This document shows positions 54,751 to 64,000 of a stretch of DNA of 64,000 bases, piece after piece; within the stretch, counting starts at the first letter, position 1; each line of letters starts with the position of its first letter. Origin of the DNA: Streptomyces alfalfae (lineage in GTDB: Bacteria > Actinomycetota > Actinomycetes > Streptomycetales > Streptomycetaceae); the NCBI RefSeq assembly GCF_004127445.1, contig NZ_QEXM01000040.1, positions 1-64,000 on the forward strand, given 5' to 3'. A model generated the notes under the pieces. That model searched no databases, was not told the origin of the DNA, and was given only the letters and a program-made list of their open reading frames with translations. Position numbers and translations under genes: made by a program.

Positions 54751-55392
54751 TCAGTGGCCCTCGGCGCCGTGCAGCGGGAAGCCCGCGATGCCGCGCCAGG
54801 CGAGCGAGGTGAGCAGCTCCACCGCCTTGTCGCGGGGGACCGTGCTGCCGCTGGCCAGCCAGTACCGCGCGACCACCTGCGAGTAGCCGCCGAGGCCGAC
54901 GGCGAGGAGCATCGCCTCGTCCCTGGGCAGGCCGGTGTCCTCGGCGATGACCTCGCAGATCGCCTCGGCGCACTGCAGGGTGACGCGGTCGACGCGCTCG
55001 CGGACGGCGGCCTCGTTCGTCAGGTCCGACTCGAAGACCAGCCGGAAGGCGCCGCCCTCGTTCTCCACGTACGCGAAGTAGGCGTCCATCGTGGCGGCGA
55101 CGCGCAGCTTGTTGTCCGTGGTGGACGCGAGGGCCGTGCGGATCGACTGCAGGAGCGAGTCGCAGTGCTGGTCGAGCAGGGCCAGGTAGAGGTCGAGCTT
55201 GCCGGGGAAGTGCTGGTAGAGCACCGGCTTGCTGACCCCGGCGCGCTCGGCGATGTCGTCCATCGCGGCGGCGTGGTAACCCTGTGCGACGAAGACTTCC
55301 TGGGCGGCGCCGAGAAGTTGGTTGCGCCGGGCCCGTCGCGGCAGGCGGGTGCCCCGTGGCCGGGCCGCCTCTGTCTGCTCGATGGCTGTCAC
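54751..55392 (-). CDS. TetR-family transcriptional regulator
   Basis: This 213-residue regulator has an N-terminal HTH: RRNQLLGAAQEVF, then YHAAAMDDIAERAGVSKPVLYQHFPGK at about residues 20-70. The C-terminal ligand-binding domain is typical. GTG 55392 is chosen; GGAGG lies only 4 nt away, and ATG 55413 is also possible. In mycobacteria the same position holds Rv3208. The target is unknown. Confidence 0.9.
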   Translation of the reverse strand: MTAIEQTEAARPRGTRLPRRARRNQLLGAAQEVFVAQGYHAAAMDDIAERAGVSKPVLYQHFPGKLDLYLALLDQHCDSLLQSIRTALASTTDNKLRVAATMDAYFAYVENEGGAFRLVFESDLTNEAAVRERVDRVTLQCAEAICEVIAEDTGLPRDEAMLLAVGLGGYSQVVARYWLASGSTVPRDKAVELLTSLAWRGIAGFPLHGAEGH

Positions 55393-55537
55393 GCCGCCTC
55401 CCAAATCGTCCATGTGCGGTGAGCGCCGCGCCGCCATCGTACTTTTCGGTAACTGTGATGTGTGCGGTGCGGGCGGAGAATTTCACGGACCGGATGATCG
55501 CTGAATCGGTATGCAGCCGGGCAATCACGGTCAGGCG

Positions 55538-56951: not shown

Positions 56952-58319
56952 GTGGGACGGCACAGCCGCCGGGGTCCGGCAGACACGACCGACGAGACCG
57001 GCGCCTCTGGTGCGGCCCCTGCCCGGGCCGCGGTCCCGCGCCCGGGTCCCGGCTCGGGCCGCCGCAGACGCGCACCCGGAGACGAGGGGACGCCGGCGCA
57101 CGGCACCCCCGCCGCCTCGTACGGCACCCCTGCGCACGGCACGCACATTCCTCCGCACGGCACTCCGCCGCATGGCGTCCCGCACGCGCGCGGCGGGCAT
57201 CCGGAGCAGCGGGAGGACGGTGGCGGCTGGGGCGAGGTCGGCGGTACCGGAGCCGGGCCCCGCGCGGACGCCGCGCACCCGGCGCCGCCGCCCGCGATGC
57301 CGGGGCCCCGCGGACAGGGCCCCCGCCAGGACTACGTGGCCGCCTTCGCCGAGGGGGACGCGCCGGCGTCGAGCGGACCTCCCCCGCCCCGCGACCTGTA
57401 CGCCTCCGTCACCGCCTGGGGCGACGTCGAGCCGCGGCCCGGGGACGAGGTGTCCTTCGCGGGCGACGGCGATCTCGGTGACGGCAGTGACGAGGGCGGC
57501 GGCAGGCGCAGGCGCAACCGCCGTGCCTACGCGGGCATCGCGGCCGCCGCGGTGACCACCGTGCTCGCGGTCGTCGTGGCCGGTCAGGTCGCCGACGGCG
57601 CCGACCCCGACGACACCGGGAAGCGGGCCGCCGCGGGCGGCGGCGACCGGGACACCGAGGACCCCGCGTCCCGTTCGGACGAGCGGAACAAGCCGGCCAA
57701 GGCGCCGGACGCGCCCCCGGTCACGTACGAGCAGAAGATGGGCGAGAAATACCCGCTGGACGCGAAGCTGAGCGCGTCCGGCGAATTCGAGGCCGTGGGC
57801 GGATTCGCGAAGGGCCCCGGAAAGGGGCAGCGGTTCCGGTACCGCGTGGACGTGGAGAAGGGGCTCGGTCTCGACGGTCCGCTCTTCGCCGACGCCGTGC
57901 AGAAAACCCTGAACGACGAGCGGAGTTGGGCCCACAAGGGCGCCCGCACCTTCGAGCGGATCGAGTCGGGGAAACCCGATTTCGTCATCACCCTGGCCAG
58001 TCCCACGACGACCGCGAAGTGGTGCGCGAAATCCGGTCTCGACACCACTCAGGACAATGTCTCCTGCGATTCCGCGGCGACGGAACGCGTCATGATCAAC
58101 GCCTATCGCTGGGCGCAGGGCGCGAAGACCTACGGCGACGACATCTATCCGTACCGCCAGATGCTGATCAATCACGAGGTCGGCCACCGGCTCGGTTTCA
58201 ACCACACGGACTGCTCCAAGAGCGGTGATCTCGCGCCCGTCATGCAGCAGCAGACCAAGTTCCTCGACCACGACGGCATCAAGTGCAAGGCCAACCCCTG
58301 GGCCTTCCCCAAGAGTTGA
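56952..58319 (+). CDS. DUF3152 protein: membrane-anchored, metzincin-type zinc metalloprotease-like
   Basis: This 455-residue protein has a disordered cytosolic start of about 190 residues, one transmembrane helix (about 193-215), a linker and an extracytoplasmic DUF3152 domain (about 260-455). The domain contains a metzincin zinc motif: His408-Glu409-x2-His412-x2-Gly-x2-His418. A Met-turn-like VMQQQ follows about 20 residues later, and three or more Cys could form disulfides. The mycobacterial relative is Rv3207c. Catalysis is not shown in anything I know, but the motif is strong. Confidence 0.88.
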   Translation: MGRHSRRGPADTTDETGASGAAPARAAVPRPGPGSGRRRRAPGDEGTPAHGTPAASYGTPAHGTHIPPHGTPPHGVPHARGGHPEQREDGGGWGEVGGTGAGPRADAAHPAPPPAMPGPRGQGPRQDYVAAFAEGDAPASSGPPPPRDLYASVTAWGDVEPRPGDEVSFAGDGDLGDGSDEGGGRRRRNRRAYAGIAAAAVTTVLAVVVAGQVADGADPDDTGKRAAAGGGDRDTEDPASRSDERNKPAKAPDAPPVTYEQKMGEKYPLDAKLSASGEFEAVGGFAKGPGKGQRFRYRVDVEKGLGLDGPLFADAVQKTLNDERSWAHKGARTFERIESGKPDFVITLASPTTTAKWCAKSGLDTTQDNVSCDSAATERVMINAYRWAQGAKTYGDDIYPYRQMLINHEVGHRLGFNHTDCSKSGDLAPVMQQQTKFLDHDGIKCKANPWAFPKS

Positions 58320-58531: not shown

Positions 58532-60274
58532 GTGGCACTCGTGCGCGTCGCACTGCTTACGGAGGGTGGCTATCCGTATCTGACCGGTGAGGCGAGGCTC
58601 TGGTGCGACCGGCTCGTGCGCGGTCTGGAACAGCACGAGTTCGACGTCTACGCGCTCAGCCGCAGCGAGCGGCAGGAGGCGCGGGGGCGCGTCGGACTGC
58701 CGCCCAACGTCACCGGGGTGCGGACGGCGCCGCTCTGGACCACCGACGACCGGACGCTCCATGGCGCGGGCCCGCGGGGCGGCCGGGGACGCGGCGCGCG
58801 GCGGCGGTTCCTCGCGTGCCTCGCGGAGCTGGCGGAGGTGGTGTGCCGCGGCACCGGACCCGGCCCCGACTCCAGCGACCCCGACGACATGGCGGACCGT
58901 TTCCGCAACGCGCTCCACGGGCTGGCCGAGCTGGCCCGCGCAGAGGGCGGCCTGGTCGGCGCCCTGCGCTCGGAGGCGGCCGTGCGCACGCTGGAGCGCG
59001 CCTGCCGTGCGCCCGGCGCGCCGGCGGCCGTCCGCGCCGCCCGCGTGCCCGACCTGCTCGCCGCCGCCGGGCTCATGGAGCGGGCGCTCCGGCCGCTCTC
59101 CCTCGACTGGTACGGGGACGGGGCGCTCGGCTCGGCCGACCTCTGCCACGCCACGGCGGGCGGACCGGCGGCGCTGCCGGGACTCCTGGCCCAGCATTTC
59201 GCGGGGGTGCCGCTCCTCGTGACCGAGTACGGCGTGCGGCTGCGGGCGCACTACCTCGCAGCGGGCGAGGCGGGCCTCGGCGCACCCGCGCGGGCCCTGC
59301 TCGCCTCCTTCCACGGCCGCCTCGCCGCCGAGGTGTATCGCGAGGCCGCCCTCATCACCCCGGGCAACACGCACGTACGGCGCTGGCAGGAGCGGTGCGG
59401 CGCCGAGCGCGCCAAACTCCGCACGGTCCACCCCGGCATGGCGGCCGACCGCTTCGCGGAGATCGGGGAGCGGGGGTACGACGGCCGCGCGGACGCCTCC
59501 GGCACGCTGCTCTGGGTCGGCCGCGTCGAACCCGCCAAGGACCTGGTCTCACTGCTCCACGCCTTCGCCGAGGTCCGCGCGGCGGAGCCCGGGGCGCGGC
59601 TGCGGATCGTCGGGACGGCCGCCGAAGGCCGCGAGGCCGAGGAGTACCTCACGCGCTGCCGGGCGCTGGCCGCGCGGCTCTTCCCCGGCCCCGACCCGGC
59701 GGACGGCGCGCACGACGACGGCGCCGTCTCCTTCGAGGAGATCGGCGGCCCGGGCGTGCCCGACCTCGCCGACGCGTACGCCGCGGGGGCCGTCGTGGTG
59801 CTCTCCAGCGTCGTCGAGGGCTTCCCGATCAGCCTGGTCGAGGCCATGTTCTGCGGACGCGCGACCGTCTCGACGGACGTGGGCGCGGTGGTGGAGGTCA
59901 TCGGCGGCACGGGACTCGTCGTGCCGCCGCGCGATCCGGGGGCGCTCGCGGAGGCGTGCGTGGCGCTCCTGCGCGACCCCGCGCGGCGTGAGCGCCTGGG
60001 CGCTGCGGCGCGGGCGCGGGCCCTGGAACTCTTCACCGTCGAGCAGAACGTCGCGGCATTTCGCGGCATTTACCTGGAGATCGTCTCGCACTGCCCGGTG
60101 CGCCGTGACGCACTGGACGAGGCGGGCGAGCCGGTGCCCTTCGCCCACCCGGCGGAGGCCCATGTGCCGGGCCGCTGGGCGGCGTCGGCGTCCACCGCGG
60201 AGGCGGCGGCGACGCCCAGCTGGGCCGGCCGGGAGACCGACGGGCGCGACCGGCTGAAGGGGGCGGCCGTATGA
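58532..60274 (+). CDS. DUF3492/GT4 glycosyltransferase (PelF-like)
   Basis: This 580-residue cytosolic GT-B enzyme likely transfers sugars from a nucleotide donor onto a growing polysaccharide or lipid. Its start VRVALLTEGGYPYLTGEARLW is the DUF3492 hallmark, diverged from PelF's GGVSSW to GEARLW. The C-terminal half has LLWVGRVEPAKD and the GT4 EX7E motif Glu429 to Glu437 (VEGFPISLVEA). A 40-residue tail is extra. Start GTG 58532 has GGAG 7 nt upstream; GTG 58541 and upstream ATG 58463 are alternatives. Its stop overlaps the next ATG (ATGA). Confidence 0.88.
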   Translation: MALVRVALLTEGGYPYLTGEARLWCDRLVRGLEQHEFDVYALSRSERQEARGRVGLPPNVTGVRTAPLWTTDDRTLHGAGPRGGRGRGARRRFLACLAELAEVVCRGTGPGPDSSDPDDMADRFRNALHGLAELARAEGGLVGALRSEAAVRTLERACRAPGAPAAVRAARVPDLLAAAGLMERALRPLSLDWYGDGALGSADLCHATAGGPAALPGLLAQHFAGVPLLVTEYGVRLRAHYLAAGEAGLGAPARALLASFHGRLAAEVYREAALITPGNTHVRRWQERCGAERAKLRTVHPGMAADRFAEIGERGYDGRADASGTLLWVGRVEPAKDLVSLLHAFAEVRAAEPGARLRIVGTAAEGREAEEYLTRCRALAARLFPGPDPADGAHDDGAVSFEEIGGPGVPDLADAYAAGAVVVLSSVVEGFPISLVEAMFCGRATVSTDVGAVVEVIGGTGLVVPPRDPGALAEACVALLRDPARRERLGAAARARALELFTVEQNVAAFRGIYLEIVSHCPVRRDALDEAGEPVPFAHPAEAHVPGRWAASASTAEAAATPSWAGRETDGRDRLKGAAV

Positions 60275-61464
60275 AGCGCCAGGACGGTACGGGCGGAGCG
60301 GTCGACGCACCGCCCCCGATGGAGCCCTCGGCCGATACCGAGATCGGGGCCGAGATCGAGGCCGCGGCGCCGCGGCACGGCGCGGCCGACCCCGTGAAGG
60401 CGCTCATGCGCCGGCACCACGACCTGTGCGCCCGCGCCGTCGACCCGCTGGAGATCGCGGCCGGTCTGGAGGCGCACGGCCTGACCGACCGGGCCGCCGG
60501 GCGCTATCGGCACCGGGACGTGTTCTCCCTGGCCGAGGAGATGTACGCGCGCGTGCCCCGCGACGACGACGTGGCAGGTGGCCTCTCCGGCGACAGCGTC
60601 GACGTACGCCATGGGTCGGCGGTCGCGCCGGGCTGGGCCCTGTTCGCGCTGCTGCCCGGCGCGGCGTGCGCGGCGACGGCGGCCGCCGTGCCACGGGTCG
60701 GCGCGGGCGCCGCGCGGCTCGCCGTGGTGCTCGGCGGCGCGCTCGCCGTGGCCCTGGCGCTGCGCTGCGCCCTGCGGCGCGGGCCCCTGCGCGTCACTCC
60801 GCGCCGGGCGCCGGCCACGCGCGCGTGGGTGTGCTGGCTCCTCCTGTACGCACTGCTCGGCGACGCCCTGCTGCGCGACGCCGTGGCGGGCGGCCCCGAC
60901 GAGCCGGGCGACCTCTGGGAGCCCGCCGTCGCACCGGTCCTCGCCCTGACGGCGGCCGTCGCGCCCGCGGCCCTGTGCGCCCGGCTCCTCGCCCTGGCGG
61001 CCGGGCGGCGGCTCCGCGCGAGCCGCGGCCTCGACGAGTTCGCCGCCTCCGCACGCCCGTTGGTGTTCGGCGCGGTCGCGCTGTTCCTCGGCGCGCTCGC
61101 CGGGCTGCTCGCGGCGGCCCGGACGCTGCCCGGCGCGCCCGGCGCGTGGCCCGCGGGGGCCGGGGCGCTCGGCGCGCTGCTGTTCCTCGCGCGGCTGCTC
61201 GCCGTGCACGGCTTCCGGCGGGCCCCCGCCCTGCTCCTCGCGGCGGCGGGCGCCTGCGAGGTGACCGCGCTCGCCCTGGTGTTCGCGGGCCGCCTGCCCG
61301 GGTGCGACGTGCTGGCCGCACCCGTCACGGCCGCCGTCGACTCCTGGGGCCCCGGCGTCGTACCGGCCGCCGCGTGCGGTGCCGCCGCCCTCGTCCTCCT
61401 GATCCACGCGGCGAGGACCCTGACCCTCGCCTCCGCTCACGCCCGCACCGGAGCCGCGCCGTGA
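60271..61464 (+). CDS. Polytopic membrane protein of the polysaccharide-like operon
   Basis: This 397-residue protein has a cytosolic domain of about 105 residues (helical, with RRHHDLCARAVDPLEIAAGLE) and eight predicted transmembrane helices. It is very Ala/Leu-rich. It has no known motif, but its position suggests a PelG/PelE-like role in export or synthase assembly. It starts at ATG 60271 inside the glycosyltransferase stop and its stop overlaps the next GTG. Confidence 0.75.
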   Translation: MKRQDGTGGAVDAPPPMEPSADTEIGAEIEAAAPRHGAADPVKALMRRHHDLCARAVDPLEIAAGLEAHGLTDRAAGRYRHRDVFSLAEEMYARVPRDDDVAGGLSGDSVDVRHGSAVAPGWALFALLPGAACAATAAAVPRVGAGAARLAVVLGGALAVALALRCALRRGPLRVTPRRAPATRAWVCWLLLYALLGDALLRDAVAGGPDEPGDLWEPAVAPVLALTAAVAPAALCARLLALAAGRRLRASRGLDEFAASARPLVFGAVALFLGALAGLLAAARTLPGAPGAWPAGAGALGALLFLARLLAVHGFRRAPALLLAAAGACEVTALALVFAGRLPGCDVLAAPVTAAVDSWGPGVVPAAACGAAALVLLIHAARTLTLASAHARTGAAP

Positions 61465-61562
61465 ACCGGCCCACCGACCACGACCCGCCCCCCGCGGGGC
61501 CGACACCGCGGGCGCCCTTACCCCGTGACCCACGGCACCACCCGAAGGAGAAAGACAGATGA
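61461..61562 (+). CDS. 33-residue micro-ORF bridging two overlaps
   Basis: This open frame starts at GTG 61461 in the stop of the membrane gene (GTGA) and ends at TGA 61560-61562, overlapped by ATG 61559. The product is Pro/Asp/His-rich, ending HHPKEKDR. It has a TTA codon (61518-61520), the bldA-dependent codon rare in Streptomyces. About 80 percent of codons end in G or C, which is modest. It may be a coupling element, not a functional peptide. Confidence 0.4.
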   Translation: MNRPTDHDPPPAGPTPRAPLPRDPRHHPKEKDR

Positions 61563-61615
61563 CCACCCGCAGTCGCTTCCGCCCGCGAGCGGCCACCCCG
61601 GGAGGCGCCCGATGA
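61559..61615 (+). CDS. 18-residue micro-ORF coupled to the epimerase
   Basis: This frame starts at ATG 61559 after a good AAGGAG site (8 nt spacing) and ends at TGA 61613-61615, overlapped by the epimerase ATG. The product is short, basic and Arg-rich. Its ribosome site is the best in this stretch. It may act as a leader that keeps ribosomes flowing into the epimerase. Confidence 0.4.
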   Translation: MTTRSRFRPRAATPGGAR

Positions 61616-62565
61616 GAGTGCTGCTGATCGGAGCCAACGGATACCTCGGCCGCTTCGTCGCCGACCGGCTGCTCGCCGACCCGGCGGTGCAGCTCACGGC
61701 GCTCGGCCGCGGCGACGACTCGGACGTACGGTTCGACCTCGCCAGCGGCAGCCCCGGCGCGCTCACCCGCTTCCTCGACGCCGTCCACCCCGGCGTGGTG
61801 ATCAACTGCGCCGGTGCGACCCGGGGCGGCGCCCGCGAGCTGACCAGGCACAACACCGTCGCGGTCGCCACCATCTGCGAGGCGCTCAGGCGCAGCGGCT
61901 GCGGGGCGCGGCTCGTGCAGCTCGGCTGCGGCGCCGAGTACGGCCCGAGCCAGCCGGGGTCGTCGACCGCGGAGGACGCGGTGCCGAGGCCCGGCGGACC
62001 GTACGGCGTCAGCAAGCTGGCCGCCACCGAGCTGGTGCTCGGCTCGGGTCTCGACGCCGTCGTCCTGCGGGTGTTCTCCCCCGCGGGGCCCGGCACGCCC
62101 GCCGGCTCCCCCCTCGGACGGCTCGCCGAAGCCATGCGGCGGGCGATGCAGTCGGGGGACGGCGAGCTCAAGCTGGGCGGCCTCGGCGTGCAGCGGGACT
62201 TCGTCGACGTGCGCGACGTGGCGCGGGCCGTGCACGCGGCCTCGCTCTCCGCCGCGCAGGGCGTCGTGAACATCGGCGCGGGCCGTGCGGTGCGGCTGCG
62301 CGACGCCGCCGCCGTGCTCGCCCGTGTCGCGGGGTACGGCGGAGCGCTGCACGAGCTGGACCAGATGCCCTCACGAGCGGTCATCGGCCACCCCCGGGGC
62401 GAGCCGGACCACGGCGGCCCGGCCGTGTACCCGTACCCCGACGGCTGCGGGAGCTGGCAGCAGGCCGATGTGCGCACCGCGCGCGACCGGCTCGGCTGGC
62501 GGCCCCGGATCAACCTGGAGGAGTCCCTCGCCGACATCTGGATGGAGGCGGCATGCCGCATCTGA
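61612..62565 (+). CDS. NAD-dependent epimerase/dehydratase (SDR family)
   Basis: This 317-residue extended-SDR enzyme probably changes the configuration or redox state of a nucleotide sugar. The NAD(P)-binding GANGYLG lies at residues 8-14. The catalytic Tyr and Lys are in YGVSK, near residue 127-131, with a candidate catalytic residue in QLGCGAEYG. A C-terminal lobe ends RLGWRPRINLEESL. It has GGAGG 6 nt before ATG 61612. It overlaps the next gene by 13 bp. In Pel loci an epimerase (PelX) makes UDP-GalNAc. Confidence 0.88.
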   Translation: MRVLLIGANGYLGRFVADRLLADPAVQLTALGRGDDSDVRFDLASGSPGALTRFLDAVHPGVVINCAGATRGGARELTRHNTVAVATICEALRRSGCGARLVQLGCGAEYGPSQPGSSTAEDAVPRPGGPYGVSKLAATELVLGSGLDAVVLRVFSPAGPGTPAGSPLGRLAEAMRRAMQSGDGELKLGGLGVQRDFVDVRDVARAVHAASLSAAQGVVNIGAGRAVRLRDAAAVLARVAGYGGALHELDQMPSRAVIGHPRGEPDHGGPAVYPYPDGCGSWQQADVRTARDRLGWRPRINLEESLADIWMEAACRI

Positions 62566-63302
62566 CCAGGACCGCGAGGGGCGGCTCGGCCACCGGCATC
62601 AGCGTCGGCTTCGGCGTCCCGGGCTTCGCCCACCCGCTCGTCGCCCCCGTCGAGTGGCACGAACTGACCCGGCACGGCACCCCGTTGCGGTGGGTTGTCC
62701 TGAACGTCGCGAACGGTCCGGGTGAACGGCCGGACCCGCACTGCCTGGAGGCGGCGGGCCGCCTGCGGAACGCGGGCATCCGGGTACTCGGCCACCTCGA
62801 CCTCGGGTACGGCGCCCGCGGCTTCGGGGACCTCGCCTCCGACGCCCACCGCTACCGCGACTGGTACCAAGTGGACGGCTACTCCCTCGACCGCTGCCCG
62901 ACGGAGCGCGCCGGGCTGCCCGAGGTGCGACGGACCGTGACCGCGCTGCGCGGTCTCGTCGACGGCGCGCACATCGTGCTCGGCCACGGGAGGCCTCCGC
63001 ATCCCGGATACGCGGAGTGGGGTGACCAGTTGGTGACCTTCGCCGGCCCCTGGAGCGATTACCGCTGGTCGCAGGCGGCCGAGTGGACCGCCGAACATCC
63101 GCCCGAGCGGTTCTGCCACTTCGTCCACGGCATGCCGCGCGGACATCTGGAGGAGGCCCTGCGCATCGCACGTCGGCAGGGCGCCTCGACGATCTACTTC
63201 ACGGACCGTGTCGACCGGGGCGGCGGAAACGACCCCTGGGAGTCCCTGCCCGGCTACTGGGACGACATCGTCTCGCGTATCGGAACAGGTATCTCGGAAT
63301 GA
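62553..63302 (+). CDS. Spherulation-specific family 4 protein (GH135-like)
   Basis: This 249-residue protein matches the spherulin-4/Sph3-type glycosidase fold: start GFGVPGFAHPLVAPVEWHEL, middle GHLDLGYGARGF, then DWYQVDGYSLDR. Family members usually have an acidic pair after the DG; here Asp is followed by Arg, so activity may differ. It has no signal peptide, so it may be cytosolic or non-classically exported. GGAGG lies 4 nt before ATG 62553. It is the last gene of the coupled operon before moeZ. Confidence 0.82.
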   Translation: MPHLTRTARGGSATGISVGFGVPGFAHPLVAPVEWHELTRHGTPLRWVVLNVANGPGERPDPHCLEAAGRLRNAGIRVLGHLDLGYGARGFGDLASDAHRYRDWYQVDGYSLDRCPTERAGLPEVRRTVTALRGLVDGAHIVLGHGRPPHPGYAEWGDQLVTFAGPWSDYRWSQAAEWTAEHPPERFCHFVHGMPRGHLEEALRIARRQGASTIYFTDRVDRGGGNDPWESLPGYWDDIVSRIGTGISE

Positions 63303-63321: not shown

Positions 63322-63365
63322 ACGTGCAGAACAACCGTTCCGCACAACCGACCAACGGAGTCCCC

Positions 63366-64000
63366 GTGTCGCTGCCACCCCTGGTCGAGCCAGCCTCTGA
63401 GCTCACCGTCGACGAGGTCCGCAGGTACTCCCGCCACCTGATCATCCCCGACGTCGGGATGGACGGGCAGAAGCGGCTGAAGAACGCCAAGGTGCTGTGT
63501 GTCGGCGCCGGTGGCCTCGGGTCGCCGGCGCTGATGTACCTGGCCGCGGCCGGTGTGGGCACGCTCGGCATCGTCGAGTTCGACGAGGTCGACGAGTCCA
63601 ATCTGCAGCGGCAGATCATCCACAGCCAGGCGGACATCGGCCGCTCCAAGGCGGAGTCCGCCAAGGACTCGGTCCTCGGCATCAACCCGTACGTGAACGT
63701 GGTCCTGCACGAAGAGCGGCTCGAGGCCGACAACGTGATGGACATATTCGGTCAGTACGACCTGATCGTCGACGGCACGGACAACTTCGCCACGCGTTAC
63801 CTGGTCAACGACGCGTGCGTGCTGCTCAACAAGCCGTACGTCTGGGGCTCGATCTACCGCTTCGACGGTCAGGCCTCGGTCTTCTGGAGCGAGCACGGCC
63901 CCTGCTACCGCTGCCTGTACCCGGAGCCCCCGCCGCCCGGCATGGTCCCCTCCTGCGCCGAGGGCGGCGTCCTCGGCGTGCTGTGCGCGTCGATCGGCTC
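63366..64000 (+). CDS. moeZ: Adenylyltransferase/sulfurtransferase MoeZ (partial, 3' end outside the window)
   Basis: The visible 211 residues are the ThiF/E1-like domain that adenylates the C-terminal Gly of sulfur-carrier proteins such as MoaD or CysO. GAGGLGSPA, the Arg-finger NLQRQII, DGTDNFATRY and a zinc CYRC followed by MVPSC AEGG are visible. A rhodanese domain is expected beyond the edge. Start GTG 63366 has GGAG 5 nt upstream. In mycobacteria the same position holds Rv3206c moeB1. Confidence 0.93.
   Translation, partial: MSLPPLVEPASELTVDEVRRYSRHLIIPDVGMDGQKRLKNAKVLCVGAGGLGSPALMYLAAAGVGTLGIVEFDEVDESNLQRQIIHSQADIGRSKAESAKDSVLGINPYVNVVLHEERLEADNVMDIFGQYDLIVDGTDNFATRYLVNDACVLLNKPYVWGSIYRFDGQASVFWSEHGPCYRCLYPEPPPPGMVPSCAEGGVLGVLCASIG

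Follow-up and report, generated by a model that had tools for sequence, protein, structure and literature searches.

A moeZ-linked locus of Streptomyces related to galactosaminogalactan-type operons, with replaced active-site residues and a membrane protein of predicted shortened flippase fold

Bacterial agd3 operons encode a cytoplasmic glycosyltransferase (GT) and a multi-spanning membrane protein in all cases identified, with GH114 as a highly consistent member and spherulin-4 genes in some Actinobacteria (PMC7229062, in part). The Aspergillus galactosaminogalactan (GAG) cluster consists of uge3, gtb3, agd3, ega3 and sph3 (PMC4817252 and PMC12054363, in part), and Pel operons have a GT with DUF3492 and GT4 domains (PMC7112168, in part). 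Here we describe a locus of Streptomyces alfalfae (assembly GCF_004127445.1, contig NZ_QEXM01000040.1) in which genes for a GT, a membrane protein, an extended short-chain dehydrogenase/reductase (SDR) and a Spherulin4 protein are followed by a moeZ-like gene. It lies in a stretch of 64,000 nucleotides (nt) that was analysed as a whole and is called the window below. An initial annotation, made from the sequence alone, had named these four proteins and assigned them to a Pel-like system. All four are present, the domain identities of the GT, SDR and spherulin being given by Pfam and that of the membrane protein by a structure model. In our reading, to which we assign a probability of about 0.6, the locus is related to the GAG-type operon, is near-universal in Streptomyces and has been neofunctionalised as a glycan complex, with a spherulin that binds its ligand and does not cut it.

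The GT carries DUF3492 and GT4 domains (Pfam, 103 and 89.6 bits), as previously annotated. It is the single DUF3492 match in the source genome, where a search for a second was negative, and it scores 97.8 bits against the NCBIfam PelF model, just below the cut-off of 100. In a tree of 46 GT rows, the window lineage (14 rows: the window and 13 of the 44 window-type GT loci) is monophyletic (100/100) and joins 20 Streptomyces GAG-type GTs with support of 97/91; two GAG-type GTs that come from other families of the class are not part of that grouping. The ten PelF rows, from which one PelF (L234) was left out, are on a separate 100/100 branch. The GT, membrane protein, SDR and spherulin of the window are each homologous to members of GAG-type operons, as determined by tblastn, hhalign and trees (the spherulin tree was built from the window and 13 of the 43 spherulin loci). 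A descent shared with the GAG-type operon, and not with Pel, is well supported by these comparisons, and we consider it highly probable.

With Pel operons (PMC7112168, in part) the locus shares the DUF3492/GT4 glycosyltransferase, but the window GT belongs to another clade and the source genome is without PelG: profile PF16933 had no match in it and did match the control, Thermotoga maritima. In a sample of the phylum, PelG is above cut-off in 7 of 396 genomes. Neither a PelD-like nor a PelG-like protein was found among the eight open reading frames (ORFs) of the locus by Pfam, and no genome-wide search for PelD or PelE was made. Membership of the Pel family was therefore rejected, given the position of the GT outside the PelF clade, the lack of PelG in the genome and the lack of a profile link to PelG. 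The Pel-like system of the initial annotation holds as regards the broad class, galactosamine-type exopolysaccharide machinery, but the GT tree makes a GAG-like operon the closest relative. Genes for an Agd3-type deacetylase, PelF and PelG occur together at two loci (L120 and L121, genomes G109 and G137). A Spherulin4 gene adjoins them on the other strand and, in L120, a gene for a GAF/GGDEF protein lies upstream; the arrangement, which mixes Pel and GAG features, comes from outside the class to which the window belongs. PelG adjoins the GT in both, which is the position of the unannotated membrane protein in Streptomyces.

A search of 100 relatives with the membrane protein returned the orthologous moeZ locus and matches at other places. 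The loci of this second type have GT, membrane protein, spherulin and sometimes SDR genes beside a gene for an Agd3-like protein, often together with GH114. In 21 such GAG-type loci (L031-L041 and ten of L118-L131), tblastn matched the GT and spherulin in 21, the membrane protein in 20, the deacetylase in 19, GH114 in 10 and the SDR in 9; the regions of L031, L032 and L037 end just past the spherulin gene. The GT, membrane protein, spherulin and GH114 genes of L033 overlap by 4 nt each, and 94 nt separate the end of the deacetylase gene from the GT gene that follows. Pfam scores in L033 are 288.8 bits for GH114 and 20.9 and 19.1 bits, both below cut-off, for Agd3_CE/CBM87 (the L120 deacetylase reaches 93.6 bits). 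A GAG-like operon is also present on plasmid NZ_CP070247.1 of Streptomyces californicus (L228), where the annotation reads hypothetical protein, PelF, hypothetical protein, SDR, sugar phosphate nucleotidyltransferase, oxidoreductase, spherulation-specific family 4 and endo alpha-1,4 polygalactosaminidase. L228 is located on this linear plasmid near a non-ribosomal peptide synthetase gene, which hints at horizontal spread.

GAG-like operons of this kind have already been reported (PMC7229062); the moeZ-linked version without agd3 is absent from the text of section 13 of that article. A search of titles and abstracts in the open-access literature, which leaves subscription papers outside its coverage, returned no paper on the moeZ-linked locus; four papers each mention one S. 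coelicolor tag of the range SCO5178-SCO5183. The window locus has in common with the Agd3 operons the cytoplasmic GT and multi-spanning membrane protein and, with some of those in Actinobacteria, spherulin-4 (PMC7229062, in part). It differs from them in having neither deacetylase nor GH114, in its apparently reduced membrane protein and replaced active-site residues, and in its constant place beside moeZ and its leader ORF. An Agd3-like deacetylase was not found in the source genome by a protein query that, at E 1e-50, matches 142 of 295 genomes of the genus; the absence rests on this query, as the Pfam Agd3_CE profile is weak for the Streptomyces deacetylase scanned with it (20.9 bits in L033) and the genome search with it matched no control. 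Two GH114 genes are present elsewhere in the source genome (C42:240689-241342 and C55:68460-69068), unlinked to the locus.

The arrangement was surveyed in the 80 top-ranking of 558 relatives, referred to as the named loci (78 from Streptomyces, one from Kitasatospora aureofaciens and one from an 'Actinobacteria bacterium'). The order GT-membrane-SDR-spherulin-moeZ is kept in 73 of them, so the four-gene arrangement is not due to chance, and the neighbourhood, whose survey across Streptomyces the initial annotation had proposed as a check, is conserved in the genus. Of the remaining seven, five are on DNA that ends 740 nt or less upstream of the membrane-gene match and two (L166 and L214) have no spherulin match. 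The moeZ gene was matched in all 80, and deacetylase and GH114 in none, within the DNA covered. The spherulin is likewise unmatched in L083 and reduced to a 94-residue remnant in L077, and G058 keeps the SDR and spherulin with a partial GT match (39%) and no membrane-protein match. Of 295 genomes of the genus, 284 match the window-type SDR at E 1e-80. The 11 that do not are ten assemblies with approximately 630 or more contigs and G010, which has part of the locus (L084). Purifying selection persists on the locus and is strongest on the SDR: the median pairwise ratio of nonsynonymous to synonymous substitution (dN/dS) is 0.081 for the SDR, 0.274 for the GT, 0.286 for the spherulin and 0.439 for the membrane protein (500 random pairs, NG86, dS 0.1-0.8, with 385 to 500 pairs left per gene).

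Residues were counted in sets of 42 or 44 window-type rows, which include the window and from which three GT, one SDR, two spherulin and five membrane protein rows were left out for odd length or gaps, and in the named loci, less two SDR and two GT rows. The two counts are not independent, as named loci and numbered genomes partly overlap (L169/G059, L190/G011 and L204/G024).

The window spherulin belongs to the Spherulin4 family (PF12138, 73.5 bits with a cut-off of 30.2; E 2.4e-20) and is the single Spherulin4 match in the source genome; PF12138, which is matched in at least 11 of 396 genomes, misses some diverged orthologues (G056, locus L073). It is related to the Sph3 structures 5d6t (E 5.3e-5) and 5c5g (E 9e-5). 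When the protein is aligned to 5c5g by phmmer, the two corresponding acidic residues, an Asp and a Glu, have the same spacing of 56 positions as residues 166 and 222. Sph3 Asp-166 corresponds to Asp113 of the window protein and Sph3 Glu-222 to Ala164: of the acidic pair of active GH135 enzymes, the Asp is kept and the Glu is not. No window-type protein has Glu at the second position, which is occupied by Ser (22), Ala (7), Arg (6), Thr (3), Gln (3) or Cys (1) in the 42 orthologues and by Ser (58), Ala (10), Arg (6) or Thr, Cys, His and Gln (1 each) in 78 named rows. In a comparison set containing both types, Glu is found there in 22/22 GAG-type and 5/5 other rows (one from a phage) and in 0/14 of the window type. 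The Asp-166 position is Asp in 33 of 42 orthologues and 61 of 78 named rows. The position of Sph3 Glu-167 is not used as a marker, since it also varies in relatives that keep Asp-166 and Glu-222.

No signal-like hydrophobic segment was detected in the first 45 residues of the window spherulin (maximum mean hydropathy 1.25). The corresponding range is 0.54-1.38 in 43 orthologues versus 2.5-3.0 in six GH114 proteins, and values of 1.77 and 1.99 are seen in two of the 11 GAG-type spherulins. The locus resembles the Aspergillus cluster in its GT, its Sph3/GH135 spherulin-4 and its epimerase-type SDR (Gtb3 lies outside the comparison), but Sph3 is described as a membrane-bound hydrolase (PMC4817252 and PMC12054363, in part), whereas the window spherulin is without a signal peptide and a Glu-222 equivalent. 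The earlier description of this protein as a spherulin-4-like glycosidase is thus correct for the family and doubtful for the activity, and trimming of a polymer, as then proposed, is unlikely by the known GH135 mechanism. A Spherulin4 protein with equivalents of both Asp-166 and Glu-222 is encoded on plasmid NZ_CP108485.1 of Kitasatospora sp. NBC_01246 (L236, 8989-9735), where it is surrounded by genes for phage heads and tails (terminase, major capsid, tape measure); this appears to be a phage-plasmid with a GH135-like protein.

The SDR matches the NAD-dependent epimerase/dehydratase family of Pfam (1.6e-36). Its best solved relative is GDP-6-deoxy-D-lyxo-4-hexulose reductase (2pk3, 1.8e-19), and UDP-glucose 4-epimerase (4zrm, 4.7e-12) is the sixth of six structure relatives. 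The standard Ser/Thr-Tyr-Lys triad of extended SDRs is not intact: Cys replaces the catalytic Ser in 44/44 orthologues and 78/78 named rows, and the Tyr and Lys of YxxxK are kept in all rows counted. Ser is found in each of the 19 other SDR rows examined, of which ten are GAG-type; L089 and L117, which were in the outgroup set, are orthologues and have Cys. Identification as PelX/GalE is not favoured, given the low rank of the 4-epimerase and the Cys. The epimerase named in the initial annotation is accordingly retained as a family assignment but not as a PelX-like role.

The pocket motifs of the GT are also altered. The motif EHGIY..RER of the GAG-type rows, of which EHGIY is also carried by the PelF rows, reads EYGVR..RAH in the window. 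The His of EHG is Tyr in 34 of 42 window-type GTs and 72 of 73 named rows, the Tyr of GIY is lost in all 42, and the second Arg of RER is His in 39 of 42. The His-to-Tyr change was dropped as a decisive marker because one subclade has His.

The window membrane protein has no Pfam or NCBIfam match. Its AlphaFold model has a mean predicted local distance difference test score (pLDDT) of 85.2, from an alignment of 42 rows (the window, 32 window-type and nine paralogue rows), and contains an N-terminal helical domain, eight long helices and one short helix. This agrees with the earlier description of an eight-segment protein with a cytosolic domain, to which the short helix is an addition. Using VIA-align, the top 17 rows are all of the MOP superfamily, with Z-scores (7.2-11.6; next row 6.8) that are below the caution level of approximately 13 for helical bundles, a point against the assignment. 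The membrane protein of the GAG-type paralogue gives a model with 12 long helices (pLDDT 78.6, 10-row alignment), for which the top 47 rows are MATE, WzxE, MurJ or other MOP proteins (Z 8.2-19.8; next row 7.6), with maxima of 19.8 for MATE, 14.8 for WzxE and 13.4 for MurJ. Row 27 of these (5c6n) bears only the title 'protein A' and is presumably a MATE protein. The fact that a family is unlisted among the VIA-align rows of either model excludes nothing. In Foldseek, the best E-value is 0.51 for the window model, with none below 0.001, and 1.8e-3 (MATE) for the paralogue. Hydropathy-based counts of transmembrane (TM) segments scattered too widely to be of use (2 to 9 in the window type and 8 to 11 in paralogues).

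Residues 187-390 of the window protein align with helices 7-12 of the paralogue in hhalign (probability 99.8%). Based on the two structure models and this profile comparison, the window protein seems to be a reduced MOP fold in which the C-lobe is kept and the N-lobe is cut to approximately two helices; the membrane protein of the GAG-type operons is predicted to have a 12-helix MOP flippase fold. The likeness to MOP flippases (MATE, WzxE, MurJ) is one of predicted fold, at the structure level only, and is strongest for the 12-helix paralogue; the window protein differs from them in its extra, predicted cytosolic domain and in its short N-lobe. PelG is itself a MOP-type protein. The hhalign probability of PelG against the window and paralogue membrane profiles is 0.1, and homology to PelG by sequence was rejected on this basis. 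The statement in the initial annotation that there is no clear PelG is correct for the genome (PF16933), but is explained differently, by a membrane protein family with a predicted MOP fold and no profile similarity to PelG.

The genes of the locus had been described as all joined by stop/start overlaps. This applies to the GT and membrane protein genes (4 nt) and to the SDR and spherulin genes (13 nt, the same 13 nt in 71 of 73 named loci), but the membrane protein and SDR genes do not overlap directly and are 147 nt apart. This gap contains a previously unreported mini-ORF (Table 1). A start with a ribosome-site-like motif is found in the gap of 70 of 76 loci, including the window, and is lacking in six. 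In 70/70 loci with such a start the mini-ORF keeps the frame and terminates in the overlap with the SDR start; it has ten different lengths from 11 to 36 residues (15 in 53 loci) and no internal stop, in a scan that used a simple motif, took the start nearest the SDR and covered loci that share ancestry. Because the frame is kept across so many lengths, the data are suggestive of translation of this leader. No RNA families were found at the locus by Rfam.

Taken together with its ancestry, the sequence features of the window locus indicate that it probably has a different job at the cell envelope. In the mechanism that we propose, the GT4 enzyme would dock on the membrane protein via the cytosolic helical domain and transfer a hexosamine-type sugar on the cytosolic side of the membrane. 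The SDR, whose synthesis would be coupled to that of the spherulin by the overlapping genes and the leader ORF, would supply or sense a nucleoside diphosphate (NDP)-sugar. The spherulin, presumed to be cytosolic, would bind the glycan while it is nascent or lipid-linked, not cleave it by the GH135 mechanism, and pass it on. The product may be a short or N-acetylated envelope glycan, not a cationic matrix polymer, because no deacetylase is present at the locus or was found in the genome.

Several observations weigh against this interpretation. The Glu residues of the GT EX7E motif are present in 38/42 and 42/42 window-type rows and both are kept in the window; with the Arg (36/42) and Lys (37/42) also mostly kept, ordinary polymer synthesis is possible. 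The EHG His is still present in 7/42 GTs. Asp218, found in 42/42 window-lineage spherulins and replaced by Pro in 10/11 paralogues, could be a relocated catalytic acid, and as the lineage has conserved residues of its own (Asp218, His192 and His198), its pocket may have been rebuilt, contrary to a simple dead-enzyme reading. The two unlinked GH114 genes could act in trans, and the absence of GH114 at the window locus is weak evidence, since about half of the GAG-type loci examined also give no GH114 match. Long branches (L119, L083 and some PelF) are present in the GT tree, whose root is a midpoint. The MOP link rests on the stronger model, that of the paralogue, and covers whole models, not the N-terminal domain alone. 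The product, the sugar donor, the location of the proteins and the complex itself are proposals. Some of these points would suit a still-active, streamlined GAG/Pel-like synthase that makes and exports a polymer containing N-acetylgalactosamine, with GH114 working in trans and a spherulin hydrolase whose acid has moved, for example to the invariant Asp218: EX7E is kept in most GTs, YxxxK is kept in all SDRs counted, two GH114 genes are in the genome, and galactosamine-containing polysaccharide is present at low levels in Streptomyces walls (PMC7229062, in part). We regard an active synthase of this kind as unlikely, in view of the failure to find an Agd3-like deacetylase in the source genome with a query that matches many others of the genus, the constant lack of Glu at the Glu-222 position, a membrane protein that is modelled without most of the MOP transporter N-lobe, and a spherulin without a signal peptide.

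A Pel locus proper, reduced in Actinobacteria, would explain the DUF3492/GT4 domains, the near-threshold PelF score and the spherulin-like protein, but it is largely refuted by the GT tree, in which the window is outside the 100/100 PelF clade; with no PelG in the genome, no profile link between the membrane protein and PelG, and PelG-containing Pel loci elsewhere in the phylum that look different, we consider it very improbable. It is also improbable, although less so, that the four proteins have a regulatory or sensing role, as a complex of pseudoenzymes that signals the status of an NDP-sugar or glycan and makes no polymer. The replacement of residues in three of the four proteins, the shortened transporter fold, the very strong constraint on the SDR and the retention of SDR and spherulin in G058 would be consistent with sensing; the GT nevertheless keeps EX7E, Rfam finds nothing, the sole regulator nearby is a TetR-family gene on the other strand, and purifying selection also fits a changed enzyme. 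A tentative history, possible rather than likely, is that a complete synthase operon was copied in a Streptomyces ancestor, with one copy acquiring a shortened flippase, an altered GT, a Cys-type SDR and a non-cutting spherulin to become an almost genus-wide, leader-paced cytosolic device for handling or sensing glycan. To our knowledge, no counterpart of such a device has been described.

Many genomes contain two versions of this machinery, with and without the modifying enzymes and catalytic residues, and so provide a natural experiment by which a role of the locus in envelope glycans or hyphal adhesion becomes testable. The placement of the unannotated membrane partner of GAG-like operons in the predicted MOP flippase fold likewise gives a testable idea of how the polymer might exit without PelG.

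Table 1. Features of the locus and its surroundings in the window
Feature	Coordinates	Strand	Basis and remarks
GT4 glycosyltransferase with DUF3492 N-terminus, GAG-type lineage	58532..60274	+	Pfam, NCBIfam, motif counts, tree
Membrane protein: predicted cytosolic N-terminal helical domain (residues 41-104) and about 8 TM helices	60271..61464	+	AlphaFold, VIA-align, hhalign
Putative leader mini-ORF, 18 residues (MTTRSRFRPRAATPGGAR)	61559..61615	+	stop TGA overlaps SDR start as ATGA
Extended SDR, epimerase/4-keto reductase-like; Cys106 at catalytic Ser	61612..62565	+	Pfam, PDB relatives, residue counts
Spherulin4 (GH135-like) protein without signal peptide; Asp113, Ala164, Asp218	62553..63302	+	Pfam, Sph3 alignment, counts
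DUF3152 protein, HEVGH motif	56952..58319	+	Pfam; often upstream of the locus, not an obvious member of the system
ThiF-family (MoeZ-like) gene, truncated by window end	63324..63998	+	Pfam; constant downstream neighbour
TetR-family regulator gene	54751..55437	-	Pfam; 3 kb upstream of locus

An alternative start of the GT gene is the GTG at 58541. The corresponding locus of S. coelicolor is presumably SCO5178-SCO5183. Upstream of the GT gene, a DUF3152 gene is found near 47 of the 80 named loci, within the DNA covered, and the DUF3152 protein of the window has a metalloprotease-like motif (HEVGHRLGFNH).

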